Source: Christiangramia gaetbulicola (GTDB taxonomy: Bacteria > Bacteroidota > Bacteroidia > Flavobacteriales > Flavobacteriaceae). From it: a stretch of 64,000 nucleotides of DNA. Within the stretch, counting starts at the first letter, position 1. Each line of letters begins with the position of its first letter. Below, piece after piece: positions 2,287-8,010 of this stretch. The stretch spans positions 1,364,001-1,428,000 of the forward strand of contig NZ_QBKQ01000001.1 in the NCBI RefSeq assembly GCF_003054225.1, given 5' to 3'. Under the pieces are notes generated by a model. The model did no database searches. It worked only from the letters and a program-made list of their open reading frames with translations, and was not told the DNA's origin. A program made the position numbers and the translations under genes.

Positions 2287-3507
2287 TTACAGTTTCCTAT
2301 GCGCCAGCACTACCGGAGGTTCTCCGTTGAACGGATTCCCCATTCTGCCGATCGTCTTTGCATCCATCGAAATGGCCCGCATCACACTATGTTCGCCAAA
2401 GCGCTTCTTGATCTTATCCAGCGAATTATAAAGATTCAGCATCTCTTCAGAATCATCAAAAAGGTTGATCTGGTAATGCCCGCCTACGAGTCCGCTGAAA
2501 CGAACGCCGATAAGCCTGATGAGTAATCGGCGGGTGTACAGCTGCCGGAATAACTCTTCAACTTTTGGAATAAGAATATGGTCGGCGCTGGTATAAGGGA
2601 TCTTCACCTGCTTGCTGTAAGTTTGAAAATCTGAATACCTGATCTTGACGCTTACATTAGAGGTAAGTTTATCTCCACGTCTTAATTGATAGGCGAGACT
2701 TTCGGCCATGGCAACGAGAGTACCGTGAAGTCTTATCATATCTATAGTATCCCGGTTAAAGGTACGCTCGGTAGAAATGGACTTTCGCTCGTGGAAAGGG
2801 ATGATGGGCGGATTATCAATTCCGTGGGCCCTTTTCCAGATGGTTCGCCCATTCTTGCCCAGAACGCTTTCCAGTACTTCTACGGGCATCTTTTGTATGG
2901 TCTCAATTCTTCGTACTCCCAGGTTAAGCAGTTTCTGAAAGGTCTTGTTCCCGATCATCGGGATCTTGTTAACCGCCAGTGGCGCCAGGAAGCTTTTTTC
3001 GGTACCGGCTTCTATGATCTTTTGTGCATAAGGTTTTCCCTCGCCGGTCGCGATCTTGGAAACCACTTTGTTTTGTGATAGTCCGAAAGAGATAGGCAAA
3101 TGTGTTTCTTTCAGAATGGTTTCCTGCAGTTCTTTCGCAAACTGGGTGATCCCGAAAAAACGATCCATCCCGGTGAGATCTGCGTAAAACTCATCTACAC
3201 TGGCCTTTTCAAAAGAGGGCACTTTACTACGAATGATCTCGGTGACTTCGTGAGAGAATTTGGTATAGGTGGAAGCATTCCCTTTGATAACCACAGACTG
3301 CGGACAAAGCTGCCTCGCTACTTTCATCGACATGCCCGAGTGTACGCCGAATTTCCGGGTTTCATAACTGCAGGCTGCTACCACACCACGGTCTCCCAGC
3401 CCGCCTACGATAAGCGGTTTGTTATTTAATTTTGAATCTAAACGTCTTTCTGCCGAAACAAAAAAGGTATCCAGATCCAGGTGAATAATAGACTTTACGT
3501 TTTTCAT
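2287..3507 (-). CDS. dinB: DNA polymerase IV (Y-family translesion polymerase)
   Basis: Y-family polymerase of 406 residues, a normal length for DinB. Catalytic acids are visible in HLDLDTFF (D11 and D13) and SVDEFYAD (D105, E106). The little-finger domain follows, with NRDTIDMIRLHGTL and NVSVKIRYSDF. The ATG at 3507 begins immediately before the conserved first strand (SIIHLDLD). It lies upstream of the short dnaE in the same direction, forming a probable translesion cassette. In many flavobacteria an XRE/S24 LexA-like regulator accompanies this pair, but none is present here. Regulation may instead act through the three phased palindromes that begin 6 bp upstream of the ATG. Confidence 0.93.
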   Translation of the reverse strand: MKNVKSIIHLDLDTFFVSAERRLDSKLNNKPLIVGGLGDRGVVAACSYETRKFGVHSGMSMKVARQLCPQSVVIKGNASTYTKFSHEVTEIIRSKVPSFEKASVDEFYADLTGMDRFFGITQFAKELQETILKETHLPISFGLSQNKVVSKIATGEGKPYAQKIIEAGTEKSFLAPLAVNKIPMIGNKTFQKLLNLGVRRIETIQKMPVEVLESVLGKNGRTIWKRAHGIDNPPIIPFHERKSISTERTFNRDTIDMIRLHGTLVAMAESLAYQLRRGDKLTSNVSVKIRYSDFQTYSKQVKIPYTSADHILIPKVEELFRQLYTRRLLIRLIGVRFSGLVGGHYQINLFDDSEEMLNLYNSLDKIKKRFGEHSVMRAISMDAKTIGRMGNPFNGEPPVVLAHRKL

Positions 3508-3512
3508 AAATA

Positions 3513-3561
3513 GGAATAATTCCTTTTAATTGGAAATATTCCAAAATTATGAAATTATTCC
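3513..3561. promoter_or_regulatory. three 11-bp palindromic boxes at exact 19-bp spacing
   Basis: In the dinB/NUDIX divergent gap, GGAATAATTCC (3513-3523), GGAAATATTCC (3532-3542) and GAAATTATTCC (3551-3561) start exactly 19 bp apart. The consensus is GGAAT-N-ATTCC: the first box is a perfect palindrome about its centre and the other two have one mismatch each. A weaker TGAAATATTCA lies at 3608-3618, also on the 19-bp grid (four steps after the second box). The first box is only 6 bp from the dinB ATG, so a bound protein would block initiation. The sequence shows the array; an operator role is inferred. Confidence 0.6.
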
Positions 3562-3659
3562 GGATGAAGATGTGGAGGGAGCGTTAAAAAGTAAATTAGA
3601 TTGGGAGTGAAATATTCAATTAAACATGTAATTTTATTAAGAACAATAATTTATATCAA

Positions 3660-4049
3660 TTGATTCAAGTTACATGTGCTCTTATTGAAAATAAGCAAAG
3701 AGTATTATGTGCTCAGCGGAGCGCAAAAATGAGCCTTCCTTTAAAATGGGAATTCCCTGGAGGGAAACTTGAAAAAGGAGAAACCCTGGAAGACTGTTTA
3801 AAAAGAGAAATAAAAGAGGAACTTGGATTAAGTATAGAAATCCTAGAGCGACTTCCCTCTAACACGCATAAATACTCCGATAAAAAAATTATTGAACTTA
3901 TTCCATTTCGTTGTTCCCTACAAACCTCAGAAATCGATTTAAAAGAACATTCTAAAATAGAATGGGCAAGTGTTTCCCAATTAGAAAGTTTTGATTGGGC
4001 AGAAGCCGATATTCCAATCGTACAACATTATATACAGAATTTTAAATGA
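3660..4049 (+). CDS. NUDIX hydrolase, MutT-type
   Basis: A 129-residue NUDIX protein with a perfect Nudix box, GKLEKGE then REIKEELGL (pattern Gx5Ex7REUxEExGU) at about residues 36-58. The family cleaves nucleoside diphosphate linkages, and the MutT branch removes 8-oxo-dGTP. The start is TTG at 3660, immediately before the first strand IQVTCALI; no ATG is available. Its stop overlaps the ATG of the helicase gene (ATGA at 4046-4049), so the two are translationally coupled. Pairing with a nuclease-helicase suggests nucleotide sanitation or a signal-nucleotide role inside that system, rather than stand-alone housekeeping MutT. Confidence 0.9.
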   Translation: MIQVTCALIENKQRVLCAQRSAKMSLPLKWEFPGGKLEKGETLEDCLKREIKEELGLSIEILERLPSNTHKYSDKKIIELIPFRCSLQTSEIDLKEHSKIEWASVSQLESFDWAEADIPIVQHYIQNFK

Positions 4050-7000
4050 GTTTTGAAACAGGTCTTTACGAACAGTTAATAAATAAACTTGTCACGAATA
4101 AACTAGATTCTCTTGATTGTCAAAAGTTTCATATTAGTGAAACCCCTTTAGATAAGGAAGAAGCATCTCAGTACTTAAGTCTTTATTTGGCAGAAACTAT
4201 TAAATATGCTTTAAATGAAATTAAAGAAAAAGATAGACCTATAAAGCAAATTGAAATTTCGAACAAGATTATTACGTTATTGGCCAAAGAGCTTAAAAAC
4301 TTAGATTTAACTGAAAATCTAATTGAAAACGAAGGTAGGATATTAGAAGCGGTCTTTTCTAAATCAAACTTTCCTTATTCAAATTTAAAAGATCGCTTAA
4401 AGGAAATAACACCTTATACTCGTCTTAGTCAAAGCGAACTATTTACTGGAAATAATACTGGGATTTCATTGGAGAGTGAGATTAAAAAGGAAATTCTTTC
4501 TGCCGATGAAATTTGTTGGCTTGTCTCTTTTATTAAATATTCTGGAATTCGAATATTTATAAAGGAATTAGAAGAATTTACTAAAAGTGGTAAGAAATTA
4601 AAAATCATCACCACTTCTTATATGGGAGCGACAGATGCTAAAGCTGTTGAATATTTAGCTTCCTTACCAAACACCGAAATCAAAGTTTCTTATAATGTAG
4701 AGCATGAAAGATTACATGCTAAAGCATATCTGTTCTTAAGAAATTCCGGATTTCATACTGGTTACATTGGCTCTTCCAACCTCTCTCGTTCAGCATTAAC
4801 TAATGGATTAGAATGGAATTTGAAAGTAACAACTCAAGAGATTGGCCATATCATAGATAAATTCCAAAAAACCTTTGAAACCTATTGGGAGGATCCCGAA
4901 TTTGAATATTACGAAAAGGGAAAAGATAGAGCTAAACTTATAAGCTCTTTGAAAAGGCAAAGCAGTCAAGGAATCAATCAAATTACTACCTTTTTTGACC
5001 TCAAACCATATCCATATCAGGAGGAAATTCTTTCTAAGCTAGATTCAGAAAGGATTATTCATAATCGAAATAAGAATTTATTGGTCGCTGCAACAGGAAC
5101 TGGTAAAACGGTGATATCAGCATTCGATTTTCAGCGTTTTAAAAAATCTAACCCCAGCCCAAAATTTTTGTTTGTTGCCCACAGAAAAGAAATTCTGGAA
5201 CAAGCACAAAAAACATTTCAACATGTTTTGCGTGACTCTAATTTTGGAGAACTTTGGGTTGGAGGTTATGAACCTGAAAAATATGACCAGCTTTTTGCCT
5301 CTGTTCAAACCTTGAATAATCGGCTTAAGAATTTACCATTAACGGAAGATTTTTTTGATTATATCATAGTAGATGAAGTTCATCATATAAAGGCCGATAG
5401 CTATAGGCCAATTTTGAAAAGATTCAATCCTAAAATTTTATTAGGCCTCACAGCAACTCCCGAAAGAATGGACGGTGGAGATATAACTGAAGATTTTCAT
5501 AATAAAATTGCTGCAGAAATAAGACTTCCTGAAGCCTTAAATCGTAAACTACTTTCTCCTTTTCAATATTTTGCTTTATCAGATTCTATTGATTTGACCA
5601 ATGTGAGTTGGAAAAATGGTAAATATGAGATTAAAGAATTAACCAAGCTATATACCGAAAATGATAGAAGAGTAGGAGATATACTTAAAAATTGTGAAGA
5701 TTATCTTACTGACGTGAATGATGTTCAGGCGTTAGGGTTTTGTGTGAGCCAAGAACATGCAAAATATATGGCAAGTAAATTTAATCTTGCTGGATTAAAA
5801 GCAGATTATCTAATTAGCGGGAACAGCTCTGACAGATCTATTTTGAGAAATCGTCTCGGTAAAAAAGATATCAATTATTTATTCGTTGTTGATATATTCA
5901 ACGAAGGCGTAGATATACCAGAAATAGACACTATTTTATTCCTTCGTCCAACAGAAAGTTTAACAATCTTTCTACAGCAACTCGGTAGAGGACTGCGTCT
6001 TGCTGAAAATAAAGATTGTTTAACCGTGCTTGATTTCGTAGGAAATGCAAGACCGGAATATGACTTTGAGCATAAATTCAGAGCTCTAATTGGAAAAACT
6101 CATACCTCTGTAATTAAAGAAATTGAAGATGAATTTCCTCACCTTCCACTAGGTTGTTCTATCGTATTAGAGAAAAAGGCCAAAGAAATAATTCTAAAAA
6201 ACATAAGAGAGGCGACTGAATTTAGGAGACCACAACTTGTCCAAAAGATTCAAAATTTCAAGCATTATTCTACTAGACCTCTAAACCTCGCTAACTTTTT
6301 GGAATTTCATCATTTGAATATTGAACAAGTTTATAAAAAAGGAAGTTGGAGTAGACTTTGTGCTGAAGCTGGGGTAATAGAGGATTTTTCAGAACCTAAT
6401 GAAAAGGAGCTGTCTAATTTTATAAGTAATAGGTTGATAAGTTGCAATTCTGTTAGCTATCTCAATTATATCAAACGCCTATGTGAAACCAATTTTGAAA
6501 TTTCTGAAAATTCAGATATTGGTAGGCTCAAAGCATTAATGTTTCATTATGATGTATGGCAAAAGTCAGGTCCAGATTGTGGATTTAAAAGTTTACAAGA
6601 AAGTTTAAAGCAAATTGCGAGGAATCCGGTGATGAGAAATGAAATAATGGAAGTGGTGAAGTATACAATTGAAGAAATTGACTTTGTGGAAAAATCTGTT
6701 GAGCTCGAGTTTGACTTTCCACTAAAAATCTATAGCCGATATAATCGAAATCAAATTCTTGTTGCGATTAGAAGACATAAATTTGAAAAGGCTAAGCCTA
6801 GTCGTGAGGGATCTTCTTATGAAAAATCTATAAATACTGAAGCCTTATTTGTGACATTGAAAAAATCTGATAAGGAATATTCTCCAACTACTATGTATGA
6901 AGATTATGCCTTAAATAAACATCTTTTTCATTGGCAAACTCAAAACAGCGCTTCCCCAAACACTCCAAAAGGACAGGCATATATAAATAGTGAAAAGAAT

Positions 7001-7183
7001 GTTTTGCTTTTTGTAAGAGAACAAAATAAAGATGAATACGGTTTTACGATGGGTTACGTATTTTTAGGTAAAGTCGAGTTTCAGAAATATTCGGGGGAAA
7101 AACCTATGAATATAGAATGGAAATTAAAAGAACCTATGCCACCCTATATCCTGAAGGAAAGTCAAAAATTGGCGGTTGGATAA
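4046..7183 (+). CDS. PLD-nuclease / DEAH-box helicase / DUF3427 protein
   Basis: A 1045-residue multidomain protein. Residues about 130-290 form a phospholipase D-like nuclease domain with HAK (H224, K226) and GSSNLS (242-247). A superfamily-2 helicase core follows, with Walker A GTGKT near 350, DEVH at 443-446, LTATPERMDG near 470 and motif VI QQLGRGLR at 644-651. The C-terminal part, ending LFVREQNKDEYGFTMGYVFLG, resembles DUF3427. Only one HxK is evident, so the PLD domain would have to dimerise, as single-motif PLD nucleases do. The gene is visibly more A+T-rich than the housekeeping genes around it, suggesting transfer. It is coupled to the NUDIX gene. The activity is expected to be ATP-driven DNA translocation with cleavage; a defence or repair role is inference. 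Confidence 0.9.
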   Translation: MSFETGLYEQLINKLVTNKLDSLDCQKFHISETPLDKEEASQYLSLYLAETIKYALNEIKEKDRPIKQIEISNKIITLLAKELKNLDLTENLIENEGRILEAVFSKSNFPYSNLKDRLKEITPYTRLSQSELFTGNNTGISLESEIKKEILSADEICWLVSFIKYSGIRIFIKELEEFTKSGKKLKIITTSYMGATDAKAVEYLASLPNTEIKVSYNVEHERLHAKAYLFLRNSGFHTGYIGSSNLSRSALTNGLEWNLKVTTQEIGHIIDKFQKTFETYWEDPEFEYYEKGKDRAKLISSLKRQSSQGINQITTFFDLKPYPYQEEILSKLDSERIIHNRNKNLLVAATGTGKTVISAFDFQRFKKSNPSPKFLFVAHRKEILEQAQKTFQHVLRDSNFGELWVGGYEPEKYDQLFASVQTLNNRLKNLPLTEDFFDYIIVDEVHHIKADSYRPILKRFNPKILLGLTATPERMDGGDITEDFHNKIAAEIRLPEALNRKLLSPFQYFALSDSIDLTNVSWKNGKYEIKELTKLYTENDRRVGDILKNCEDYLTDVNDVQALGFCVSQEHAKYMASKFNLAGLKADYLISGNSSDRSILRNRLGKKDINYLFVVDIFNEGVDIPEIDTILFLRPTESLTIFLQQLGRGLRLAENKDCLTVLDFVGNARPEYDFEHKFRALIGKTHTSVIKEIEDEFPHLPLGCSIVLEKKAKEIILKNIREATEFRRPQLVQKIQNFKHYSTRPLNLANFLEFHHLNIEQVYKKGSWSRLCAEAGVIEDFSEPNEKELSNFISNRLISCNSVSYLNYIKRLCETNFEISENSDIGRLKALMFHYDVWQKSGPDCGFKSLQESLKQIARNPVMRNEIMEVVKYTIEEIDFVEKSVELEFDFPLKIYSRYNRNQILVAIRRHKFEKAKPSREGSSYEKSINTEALFVTLKKSDKEYSPTTMYEDYALNKHLFHWQTQNSASPNTPKGQAYINSEKNVLLFVREQNKDEYGFTMGYVFLGKVEFQKYSGEKPMNIEWKLKEPMPPYILKESQKLAVG

Positions 7184-7249
7184 AAAAGAATAATATCACG
7201 ATAAGTTTTTTTTCGTACCTTAATTGTTCTAACCAAAAACCAAAATATT

Positions 7250-7483
7250 ATGAAAGGTTCTTCAGGTAAACGCAGGTTGGTAAAGAAATACGTATCAGAA
7301 TTTATATTTTCAGAAAAGACGAGGTTCGTGCTGGATGGCACTAATTATCAGTTTTCTACTGATGAACCCGCTGGAAAATTTATAAAATTTCGCTTCGAAA
7401 GAGGTCCGCGTAAGAAAAAACGGAAACTAGTTTTTAAATGTATCTATAAAATGATGAAGAACTTTCAAACTTCATTGAACTAA
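7250..7483 (+). CDS. small basic hypothetical protein
   Basis: A 77-residue, strongly basic protein (KRRLVKK near the start, RGPRKKKRK near residue 55) with no signal peptide or membrane segment. I do not recognise a family. It follows the helicase by 66 bp and is closed by a perfect palindromic terminator, so it could be the third cistron of the NUDIX-helicase operon or a separate small gene. A TACCTTAA sequence about 30 bp upstream is only a weak match to the flavobacterial -7 element. Base use is similar to the helicase. A nucleic-acid-binding role is possible from charge alone. Confidence 0.55.
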   Translation: MKGSSGKRRLVKKYVSEFIFSEKTRFVLDGTNYQFSTDEPAGKFIKFRFERGPRKKKRKLVFKCIYKMMKNFQTSLN

Positions 7484-7515
7484 AAAAAAGCTCTTTCGAT
7501 CGAAAGAGCTTTTTT
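7484..7515. terminator. bidirectional intrinsic terminator
   Basis: A 32-bp perfect palindrome whose core is AGCTCTTTCGATCGAAAGAGCT, flanked by A and T runs on both sides. It lies between the convergent ends of the small basic gene and the NTF2-like lipoprotein gene and can serve both. Confidence 0.9.
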
Positions 7516-7533
7516 ATTCCTCATAATATTATT

Positions 7534-8010
7534 TTATTCTGTAGCCGTCGTATCCGGCTCCTTATCTGTGATATTCATCACTTGCATTTTCCAGTCGTTG
7601 TTGGTTTTTTTCCAGATGAAGGTATAGGTGCCTTCATAGGTCGTATTTAAACTGTCATTTTTTATTCCATGACTGTAGGTGCCGGCTTCATAGGCGATAT
7701 CATTACTAGTATATTCAACTTTGGCGTTTGTTCTAAGGTCTTTCATCATTGGTGCCGCGTTGTTATACCAGGAACGGATGCTATCTGCATTCATACTCTG
7801 ACCCTGCATAAAAAGAACTGCATCTTTAGAAGTAAGTGTGTCTAATTCCTGTGGATTATTACGGTTCCAGGCATCGATCCACTGTTTGTTAGCTTCAGAT
7901 GGAGCACGAACTTCGGCCTGCTCAGTCGTCTCAACTGTTTCTTTTTTTCCTTCGTTACAACTACTAAAGAGAAGAAGGGCAAAAACGGGCAAAATTTTCA
8001 TTAATTTCAT
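7534..8010 (-). CDS. NTF2/SnoaL-like lipoprotein
   Basis: A lipoprotein of 158 residues from the ATG at 8010. An upstream in-frame ATG at 8046 would add 12 residues ahead of the signal peptide and is not preferred. The signal sequence MKLMKILPVFALLLFSSC ends in a lipobox with Cys18, followed by an acidic linker. The remainder (SEANKQWIDAWNRNNPQELDTL, then DAVLFMQGQ, and a final TFIWKKTNNDWKMQVMNIT) has the helix-then-curved-sheet pattern of DUF4440/SnoaL-like proteins. No catalytic role can be assigned. It is transcribed alone and converges on the terminator at 7484-7515. Confidence 0.8.
   Translation of the reverse strand: MKLMKILPVFALLLFSSCNEGKKETVETTEQAEVRAPSEANKQWIDAWNRNNPQELDTLTSKDAVLFMQGQSMNADSIRSWYNNAAPMMKDLRTNAKVEYTSNDIAYEAGTYSHGIKNDSLNTTYEGTYTFIWKKTNNDWKMQVMNITDKEPDTTATE

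Follow-up and report, generated by a model that had tools for sequence, protein, structure and literature searches.

A NUDIX hydrolase gene coupled to the gene of a SauUSI-like restriction enzyme in Christiangramia gaetbulicola, with a possible role in excluding modified cytosine

The gene pair and its SauUSI-like enzyme

We analysed a stretch of 64,000 nucleotides of Christiangramia gaetbulicola DNA (contig NZ_QBKQ01000001.1, positions 1,364,001 to 1,428,000; called the window below) and focused on two overlapping genes on its plus strand, one for a NUDIX hydrolase and one for a SauUSI-like enzyme. The NUDIX gene (3660..4049) has a TTG start and codes for 129 amino acids (aa); Pfam, PADLOC and PDB matches identify the product as a NUDIX hydrolase of the PDC-S07 type, a predicted 5-modified dCTP pyrophosphatase. 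A motif search found an intact Nudix box, GX5EX7REUXEEXGU, at residues 35-57 (3762..3830). The stop codon of this gene overlaps the start codon of the next one in an ATGA (4046..4049), which suggests translational coupling. The second gene (4046..7183) codes for 1045 aa, and PADLOC and PDB matches as well as an AlphaFold2 model point to a modification-dependent (type IV) restriction enzyme similar to SauUSI.

Pfam found PLDc_2, ResIII, Helicase_C and DUF3427 in the enzyme, all coded on the plus strand. The PLD-type nuclease domain (4484..4888; PLDc_2, 6.5e-13) has its HxK at residues 224-226 (4715-4723). It is followed by a superfamily 2 (SF2) ATPase or translocase motor (5000..6061; ResIII 1.1e-41, Helicase_C 5.5e-9) with the motifs GTGKT at 351, DEVHH at 443 and GRGLR, and by DUF3427 (6407..7156; 2.4e-28). 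The last part of DUF3427, residues 878-1045 (6677-7183), is by its domain model a putative SRA reader of modified cytosine. An earlier, sequence-only reading of this locus (the original prediction) had named a helicase with PLD, DEAH and DUF3427 parts; the domains were right, but the homology to SauUSI had been missed.

By sequence, this 'helicase' is homologous to SauUSI, the S. aureus type IV enzyme that cuts DNA with 5-methylcytosine (5mC) or 5-hydroxymethylcytosine (5hmC). It matched the PADLOC model mREase_IV at 6.1e-222, and its best PDB chain was SauUSI (7clg, 5e-79, residues 136-1009). The AlphaFold2 model, made from 59 sequences with a predicted local distance difference test score (pLDDT) of 80, again had SauUSI as the best structural match (7clg_B: Z 32.1, 715 residues aligned, root-mean-square deviation 11.9, model range 129-1031), and Foldseek matched the model to 7clg at 1.7e-42. 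Residues H224, K226, G242, S243 and N245 were invariant across the 59 sequences. The two enzymes have the PLD nuclease, the SF2 motor and the DUF3427/SRA reader in the same order; unlike SauUSI, the window enzyme has about 100 extra N-terminal residues, and the two are 28% identical in the structural alignment. In the enzyme tree, C. sediminis was the named species closest to the window.

A separate model of residues 878-1045 (pLDDT 85) had its best match in the C-terminus of SauUSI (7clg_A, Z 12.9), followed by AbaSI, SUVH5/6, AspBHI, LpnPI, PvuRts1I, MspJI, ScoMcrA, UHRF1/2 and TagI (Z from 8.5 to about 5). Readers of modified bases took ranks 1-46 of the 50 rows, some of the UHRF1 entries being parts of larger complexes. 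An SRA reader fold of the C-terminal domain is well indicated by the model. SauUSI itself uses an SRA-type reader to cut at S-5mC-NGS sites in which the cytosine is either 5mC or 5hmC (PMC7913695; PMC3874153).

The NUDIX protein and the recurrence of the pair

The NUDIX protein matched Pfam NUDIX at 1.1e-20 and PADLOC PDC-S07 at 2.6e-49; the best PDB match was 5x1x (1.8e-31) and the second was 3gwy (2.5e-22). Scores against NCBIfam models were 94.1 bits for PRK08999 ('Nudix family hydrolase'), 86.8 for PRK10546 (NudG) and 77.0 for MutT, none over the cut-off. Since the cut-off of PRK10546, a pyrimidine nucleoside triphosphate (NTP) diphosphatase model, is 156 bits, we did not file the protein as NudG itself, the CTP/5-methyl-dCTP pyrophosphohydrolase of E. 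coli (Orf135). The two proteins have D117 and H97 in common in the alignment, while MutT has N and G at these positions; the equivalent of D117, Asp118, is a specificity residue of NudG. The E. coli gene, unlike that of the window, does not lie beside a restriction gene in the one record considered. A PF00293 search found six NUDIX places in the window's own genome.

The second PDB match, 3gwy, is the B. fragilis protein Q5LBB1, which was assayed in a published screen of 74 compounds (PMC5158307). Its kcat/Km was 6.7e6 for 5-Me-CTP, 4.8e6 for 5-Me-dCTP, 4.4e6 for 5-MeOH-dCTP and 8.5e4 for 5-OH-dCTP, with much lower activity on canonical NTPs (PMC5158307). For E. coli NudG, the same source gives 1.3e6 on 5-methyl-dCTP and reports activity on 2-OH-dATP too. 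We took 5-MeOH-dCTP to mean 5-hydroxymethyl-dCTP; the two deoxynucleotide substrates of Q5LBB1, the 5-methyl and the 5-hydroxymethyl form of dCTP, are precursors of the bases that SauUSI attacks. The window protein is similar in sequence to Q5LBB1 (41% identical over 123 residues), and while the activity of Q5LBB1 was assayed, that of the window protein, hydrolysis of 5-modified dCTP, is predicted by analogy with it.

When the 3gwy stretch was compared with all open reading frames (ORFs) of all loci analysed, the 20 highest-ranking rows, which come from 14 distinct places and have 50-55% identity, were NUDIX genes adjoining SauUSI-like enzymes, and two NUDIX proteins from a second enzyme subfamily had 3gwy as their best PDB match. 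In one family, 15 of the 73 genomes searched had a 3gwy-like NUDIX, with one close match (53%), which stood beside an enzyme, and the others at 40% or less. In a NUDIX tree (123 columns, poorly resolved) the partner proteins did not form one clade.

The same pair of genes is found in S. aureus, where a NUDIX gene also precedes the SauUSI-like gene. With tblastn, we found S. aureus-derived records in which the two genes are adjacent. For example, in a record filed as an unverified phage sequence, which is perhaps host DNA, a NUDIX nearly identical to 5x1x ends at 3900, 1 bp before the start at 3902 of a 953-aa enzyme that matches 7clg over 953/953 residues (2065.7 bits). In an S. aureus plasmid record whose enzyme gene is broken, the NUDIX keeps this spacing; the protein, WP_000755954.1 (annotation '(deoxy)nucleoside triphosphate pyrophosphohydrolase'), is identical to 5x1x over 130/130 residues. 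Thus, separate PDB searches with the two window proteins, ending at 5x1x and 7clg, lead to two neighbouring genes of S. aureus. PADLOC assigned the S. aureus proteins to the same two kinds of model, PDC-S07 and mREase_IV. Among the matches listed (20 of 531 records), at least 5 of the 6 phage records with a NUDIX match also had a SauUSI-like match.

Within the genus, the enzyme was present in 7 of 24 genomes, and the NUDIX gene lay directly upstream in six of the seven. The sample of named genomes consisted of the best 80 loci of one scan, of which four were dropped for short flanks. Among the remaining 76, an adjacent NUDIX was found in 18 of 33 Bacteroidota loci, always upstream, and in 5 of 16 Bacillota loci, always downstream. 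NUDIX genes occupied 23 of the 152 slots flanking the enzymes compared to 5 of the 518 other ORFs of at least 100 aa, counts that are uncorrected for kinship of the loci. In the second enzyme subfamily (971-1155 aa), taken as all eight full-length places of the phylum scan plus one place of the genus scan, the NUDIX was upstream in 9/9. In the phylum sample, each of the seven enzyme carriers of the window's family had a strict NUDIX match adjacent to the enzyme, whereas among the family matches listed without the enzyme the number was 1 of 21, the one being fused to a Schlafen-type helicase. The pair was also found on plasmids, and spacing was tight (an ATGA overlap or about 0-10 bp) in several lineages.

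A larger Bacillota sample made it possible to compare enzymes with and without a reader. Among 348 genomes, 64 had a match, giving 69 PLD-helicase frames in 70 loci; ten frames were dropped (six with a short flank, three fragments, one duplicate), and 59 were countable, the centre genome G500 being kept. A NUDIX lay beside 18 of the 32 enzymes with a DUF3427-type C-terminus (6 upstream, 7 downstream on the same strand, 5 downstream and convergent), versus none of the 27 PLD-helicases without it; Pfam found no DUF3427 in the seven of these 27 that were checked. Without the centre genome, which was chosen because it bears the pair, the first count becomes 17/31. A side observation concerns Bacillota loci L257-L273 and others, which have PLD-SF2 proteins of about 800 aa without DUF3427 (seven checked); the one in L258 has a PADLOC mREase_IV match.

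Overall, NUDIX adjacency recurs in Bacteroidota (upstream) and in Bacillota (upstream, downstream or convergent), without being universal. On the enzyme tree (FastTree, 169 rows; 140 distinct DUF3427-type rows, as two genomes occur twice, L132/L302 and L135/L295), the four states of arrangement required 24 changes. On the starred branches alone, the changes forced numbered at least 14 ('none'), 12 (upstream), 5 (downstream) and 3 (convergent). For tree rows from other sources than the Bacillota sample, presence of the reader was assumed; Pfam confirmed DUF3427 in five of the nine second-subfamily enzymes, in L198 and in the window enzyme. Fragments and broken, odd or duplicate sequences were left out of the tree (L037, L055-L057, L059, L060, L095, L101, L139, L193, L194, L197 and L201), as were rows with no NUDIX and too short a flank; L060, L197 and L201 have a NUDIX and L193 has none. 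NUDIX genes at a distance of 272 bp (L136), 2.2 kb (L124) and 2.3 kb (L297) were counted as non-adjacent.

We also found a NUDIX gene beside an unrelated nuclease. Genome G177 has, in addition to a SauUSI-like locus with an upstream NUDIX (L043), a second NUDIX gene that overlaps an SRA-HNH gene (L183). The L183 nuclease matched SAD_SRA (1.2e-40) and HNH_2 (1.1e-12) by Pfam, and the best PDB matches of its NUDIX were 5x1x and then 2rrk, the CTP pyrophosphohydrolase of E. coli. SRA-HNH endonucleases such as TagI and ScoA3IV use an SRA reader of modified cytosine, which the window enzyme is predicted to have as well; unlike the window enzyme, they have an HNH nuclease, no motor and an unrelated architecture, so the L183 nuclease has only the reader in common with SauUSI. 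In the window enzyme, for its part, Pfam matched PLD and SF2 domains and nothing of the HNH kind, and it is therefore not an SRA-HNH fusion. Enzymes of the SRA-HNH kind are reported to cleave DNA with modified cytosine or with phosphorothioation (PMC7461809). An SRA search matched 6 of 296 Bacteroidota genomes, two of them with SRA-HNH, and 0 of 348 Bacillota genomes, where the controls were likewise unmatched, so that this zero carries no information; a plasmid search with the SRA-HNH protein gave one record.

Possible reasons for the pairing

Given the homology, domain folds, gene coupling and recurrence of the pair established here, we consider it probable that the two proteins form a single module, which keeps out C5-modified cytosine on two levels; this holds for the two-level biochemistry, and we are less sure of its purpose. 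The SauUSI-like enzyme would find 5mC or 5hmC in DNA via its C-terminal SRA domain, translocate with the SF2 motor and cut with the PLD nuclease, as homology, domain order and fold suggest. The NUDIX protein, judging from its assayed relative, would hydrolyse modified dCTP. Restriction of modified DNA would free modified monophosphates, which, once re-phosphorylated, could enter host DNA and make the host a target. The NUDIX may break this loop by keeping salvaged or phage-made modified nucleotides out of host DNA, and self-protection could then be the reason for the pairing. The proposed outcome is that host DNA stays unmodified, or that phages are starved of modified dCTP.

Several observations weigh against the two-level module. 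The window enzyme has HAKAYLFL, with L where the HxKx4E motif of SauUSI has E (HxK itself is present), and because of this replacement we filed it as a homologue of SauUSI and not as SauUSI. For the C-terminal model, Foldseek alone gave no match below 0.001, AbaSI being first at 2.2e-3. For SauUSI, one polypeptide is reported to suffice, being active by itself both in vitro and when cloned in E. coli (PMC3874153); the NUDIX is thus not needed for cutting, with the caveat that E. coli has its own NudG. Residues D117 and H97 were also found in 10 of 10 NUDIX relatives away from such enzymes and so mark a subfamily rather than a partnership. One of the seven genus carriers (G004) has no adjacent NUDIX, nor has any of the 26 Pseudomonadota named loci or the single Campylobacterota locus; of the 140 distinct DUF3427-type enzymes in the tree, 78 are without an adjacent NUDIX and 62 have one. 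The contrast between enzymes with and without the reader comes down to three phylogenetically independent comparisons (on average 0.9 agree, 0 disagree, 2.1 tie). As the reader trait changes only three times, the Fisher p of about 1e-6 does not count as evidence in its own right. The SRA-HNH enzyme with a NUDIX is one case out of the two SRA-HNH loci found, NUDIX being absent within the 1.5-kb flanks of the other (G100).

Enzymes with no adjacent NUDIX fit either a housekeeping NudG or MutT acting in trans or a partner that is not essential. A PDC-S07 match anywhere in the genome (E <= 1e-12) was found in 16 of 20 enzyme-carrying genomes, two of them known pair carriers, and in 14 of the 18 that have no pair, including all 11 of Pseudomonadota. 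A housekeeping MutT would match PDC-S07 too, so these genome-wide counts do not discriminate.

The same biochemistry could also serve attack. T4 gp56, a dCTPase, is the mirror image of such a role: the NUDIX would act on the 5-hydroxymethyl-dCTP pool of a phage, which would have to fall back on unmodified cytosine or else stall, and the enzyme would cut any modified DNA that still arose. This possibility, which we regard as rather unlikely, draws on the lack of discrimination by Q5LBB1 between 5-Me and 5-MeOH (hydroxymethyl) substrates (PMC5158307), on the listing by PADLOC of the NUDIX on its own as a phage-defence candidate (term as in PMC11514479), and on the patchy presence of the pair in the genus and on plasmids. 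NUDIX relatives are, however, also found in seemingly housekeeping contexts, e.g., beside Sua5/clpC-like genes (named by reading sequences), and many enzymes lack an adjacent NUDIX. The present data do not separate self-protection from attack on phage pools. A regulatory role, in which the NUDIX binds the enzyme or clears an activating nucleotide, would agree with the tight coupling in several lineages. We consider it improbable, given that five loci are convergent, on opposite strands, which argues against obligatory co-translation, that SauUSI works as a single polypeptide, and that a relative of the NUDIX has a kcat/Km above 1e6 on modified dCTP.

The original prediction had tied the NUDIX to translesion synthesis, and a MutT-type sanitiser of 8-oxo-dGTP or 2-OH-dATP working in repair or mutagenesis with dinB-dnaE would be its concrete form. 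The MutT score of 77 bits is not far under the 86.8 of NudG, neither being over the cut-off, dinB is adjacent in this genome, and E. coli NudG acts on 2-OH-dATP (PMC5158307). Yet the window protein has the NudG-like D117 and H97 instead of the N and G of MutT, its closest assayed relative prefers 5-modified dCTP, and dinB adjoins the pair in no more than 4 of 24 genus genomes, with none found in the searched flanks of loci outside the genus, all of which makes this version very improbable. There is, finally, a small chance that defence genes and common NUDIX genes have come together with no functional link. The association is indeed incomplete, and none of the 26 Pseudomonadota loci shows it, but the excess of NUDIX in enzyme-flanking slots over other ORFs, the repeated changes of order and strand on the enzyme tree, and the 7/7 versus 1/21 contrast in the window's family argue against mere hitch-hiking.

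If the two-level module is real, it bears on type IV restriction in general, which to our knowledge is taken to need no immunity partner, host DNA lacking the target base. We put forward tentatively, with the balance tipped slightly against it, that type IV restriction does have a metabolic immunity partner, a coupled NUDIX which clears away 5-methyl- and 5-hydroxymethyl-dCTP and so keeps the target base out of host DNA, SauUSI being one half of the system and the 5x1x NUDIX its unrecognised other half. A recurrent partner with the same chemical specificity on deoxynucleoside triphosphates would explain how modification-dependent restriction avoids self-damage through modified nucleotides that are salvaged or made by phages; an offensive role would mean a new step in anti-phage defence, one that targets the nucleotide pools of phages. 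Either way, the published hydrolysis of 5-methyl- and 5-hydroxymethyl-dCTP would gain a possible physiological role. The idea is open to immediate testing, since the PDB already has structures of both SauUSI and its NUDIX neighbour. Gene transfer into S. aureus meets a major barrier in SauUSI (PMC7913695).

Our literature search, with most subscription journals outside its coverage, found no paper that connects Nudix proteins with restriction of the type IV or modification-dependent kind. Neither 'mutT' nor 'nudix' occurs in the text of the SauUSI structure paper (PMC7913695), and a search on 5X1X gave no relevant paper. PADLOC models match both window proteins, PDC-S07 the NUDIX and mREase_IV the enzyme, but as separate library entries; the pairing is stated neither in these entries nor in the literature searched. 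PDC-S07 has been tabulated in two S. thermophilus strains (PMC11514479).

Neighbouring genes and related architectures

On the other side of a divergent intergenic region of 152 bp (3508..3659) lies dinB (DNA polymerase IV, IMS and IMS_C by Pfam; 2287..3507, minus strand), which we judged to be outside the system. The genes of the original prediction, dinB, the NUDIX (3660-4049) and the helicase (4046-7183), are real and lie in the order that it gave, with the same gap, and the A+T bias of the pair is real (G+C of 34.6% for the NUDIX and 32.8% for the helicase versus 46.4% for dinB and 40.1% for the window). DnaE had been placed within 2287-7483, and dnaE lies outside that range, at about 1-1835 on the minus strand, where it is cut by the window edge. 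The PHP domain is kept in a full-length DnaE orthologue from G003.

In the genus, dinB was found in 24 of 24 genomes with dnaE beside it in all 24. The pair abuts dinB in four of them and lies about 5 kb away in G010; G006 has only the end of the enzyme, a helicase remnant, beside dinB. A NUDIX stretch of 32% identity lies near dinB in L208 (G017), the enzyme being absent from its short flank. With tblastn, the window DinB and DnaE were found in the flanks (at most some 6 kb long, and far less in some cases) of genus loci only. With dinB-dnaE in all 24 genus genomes, the pair beside it in four of them and no dinB or dnaE found in the searched flanks of loci outside the genus, the suggested functional link to dinB-dnaE was not supported; the pair is placed independently of dinB, and a dinB-dnaE mutagenesis cassette that includes the pair was rejected. 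The dinB-dnaE neighbourhood looks like a landing place rather than a cassette.

The other functional suggestions of the same prediction fared unevenly. 'Nucleotide cleanup' pointed in the right direction, without the tie to translesion synthesis genes, and the neighbourhood supplies no reason to infer a damage response. Phage defence was correct insofar as the pair is real, patchy and probably an anti-phage or anti-foreign-DNA operon (mREase_IV 6e-222, PDC-S07 2.6e-49). A larger defence island beside it was not found: Pfam assigned seven neighbour genes, up to 15.7 kb, to ordinary families, and PADLOC gave no match for the two of them searched.

Promoter-like and terminator-like sites in 3400-7600 were no more frequent than expected by chance. 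After the enzyme comes an ORF for a basic protein of 77 aa (7250-7483), which had no Pfam match; a similar ORF follows the enzyme in G003 (L199). The 451-bp gap between dnaE and dinB (1836-2286) has stretches that look repeat-like by eye, and its length differs among genus genomes.

Other architectures were seen near such enzymes. In three of five checked enzymes of the second subfamily (L195:3732-7064, L190:5420-8887 and L191:3364-6771, each with an upstream NUDIX), a Peptidase_S24 domain (LexA/UmuD-like; Pfam 1.2e-7 to 4.1e-6) follows DUF3427 at the C-terminus, possibly making a restriction enzyme with a self-cleaving, damage-sensing domain. The NUDIX itself occurs in fusions: L171:4125-6497 (G226), which has HIT and HNH_4 genes nearby, joins a NUDIX of the same kind to a Schlafen group 3 helicase domain, and in L122:9092-9958 a downstream NUDIX is fused to a GNAT acetyltransferase domain. 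On a Hymenobacter plasmid (L236), an HNH and HIT pair lies near the NUDIX-enzyme pair.

The protein family of L200:11760-12740, HNH_2 by Pfam in the two members checked, occurs near the enzyme in 11 loci, two of them in the same genome (L200, L061, L062, L063, L079, L086, L088, L185, L186, L188 and L197). It lies downstream on the same strand six times, 10 bp after the enzyme in L061, and is absent beside the window enzyme. A HipA-like family was found near the enzyme in ten loci (L071, L089, L090, L092, L102, L105, L113, L117, L139 and L187), with HipA_C by Pfam in L071 and a small gene resembling helix-turn-helix proteins alongside in five. Other Pseudomonadota loci are flanked by yicC/rph-like genes (named by reading sequences), which suggests a landing site there.

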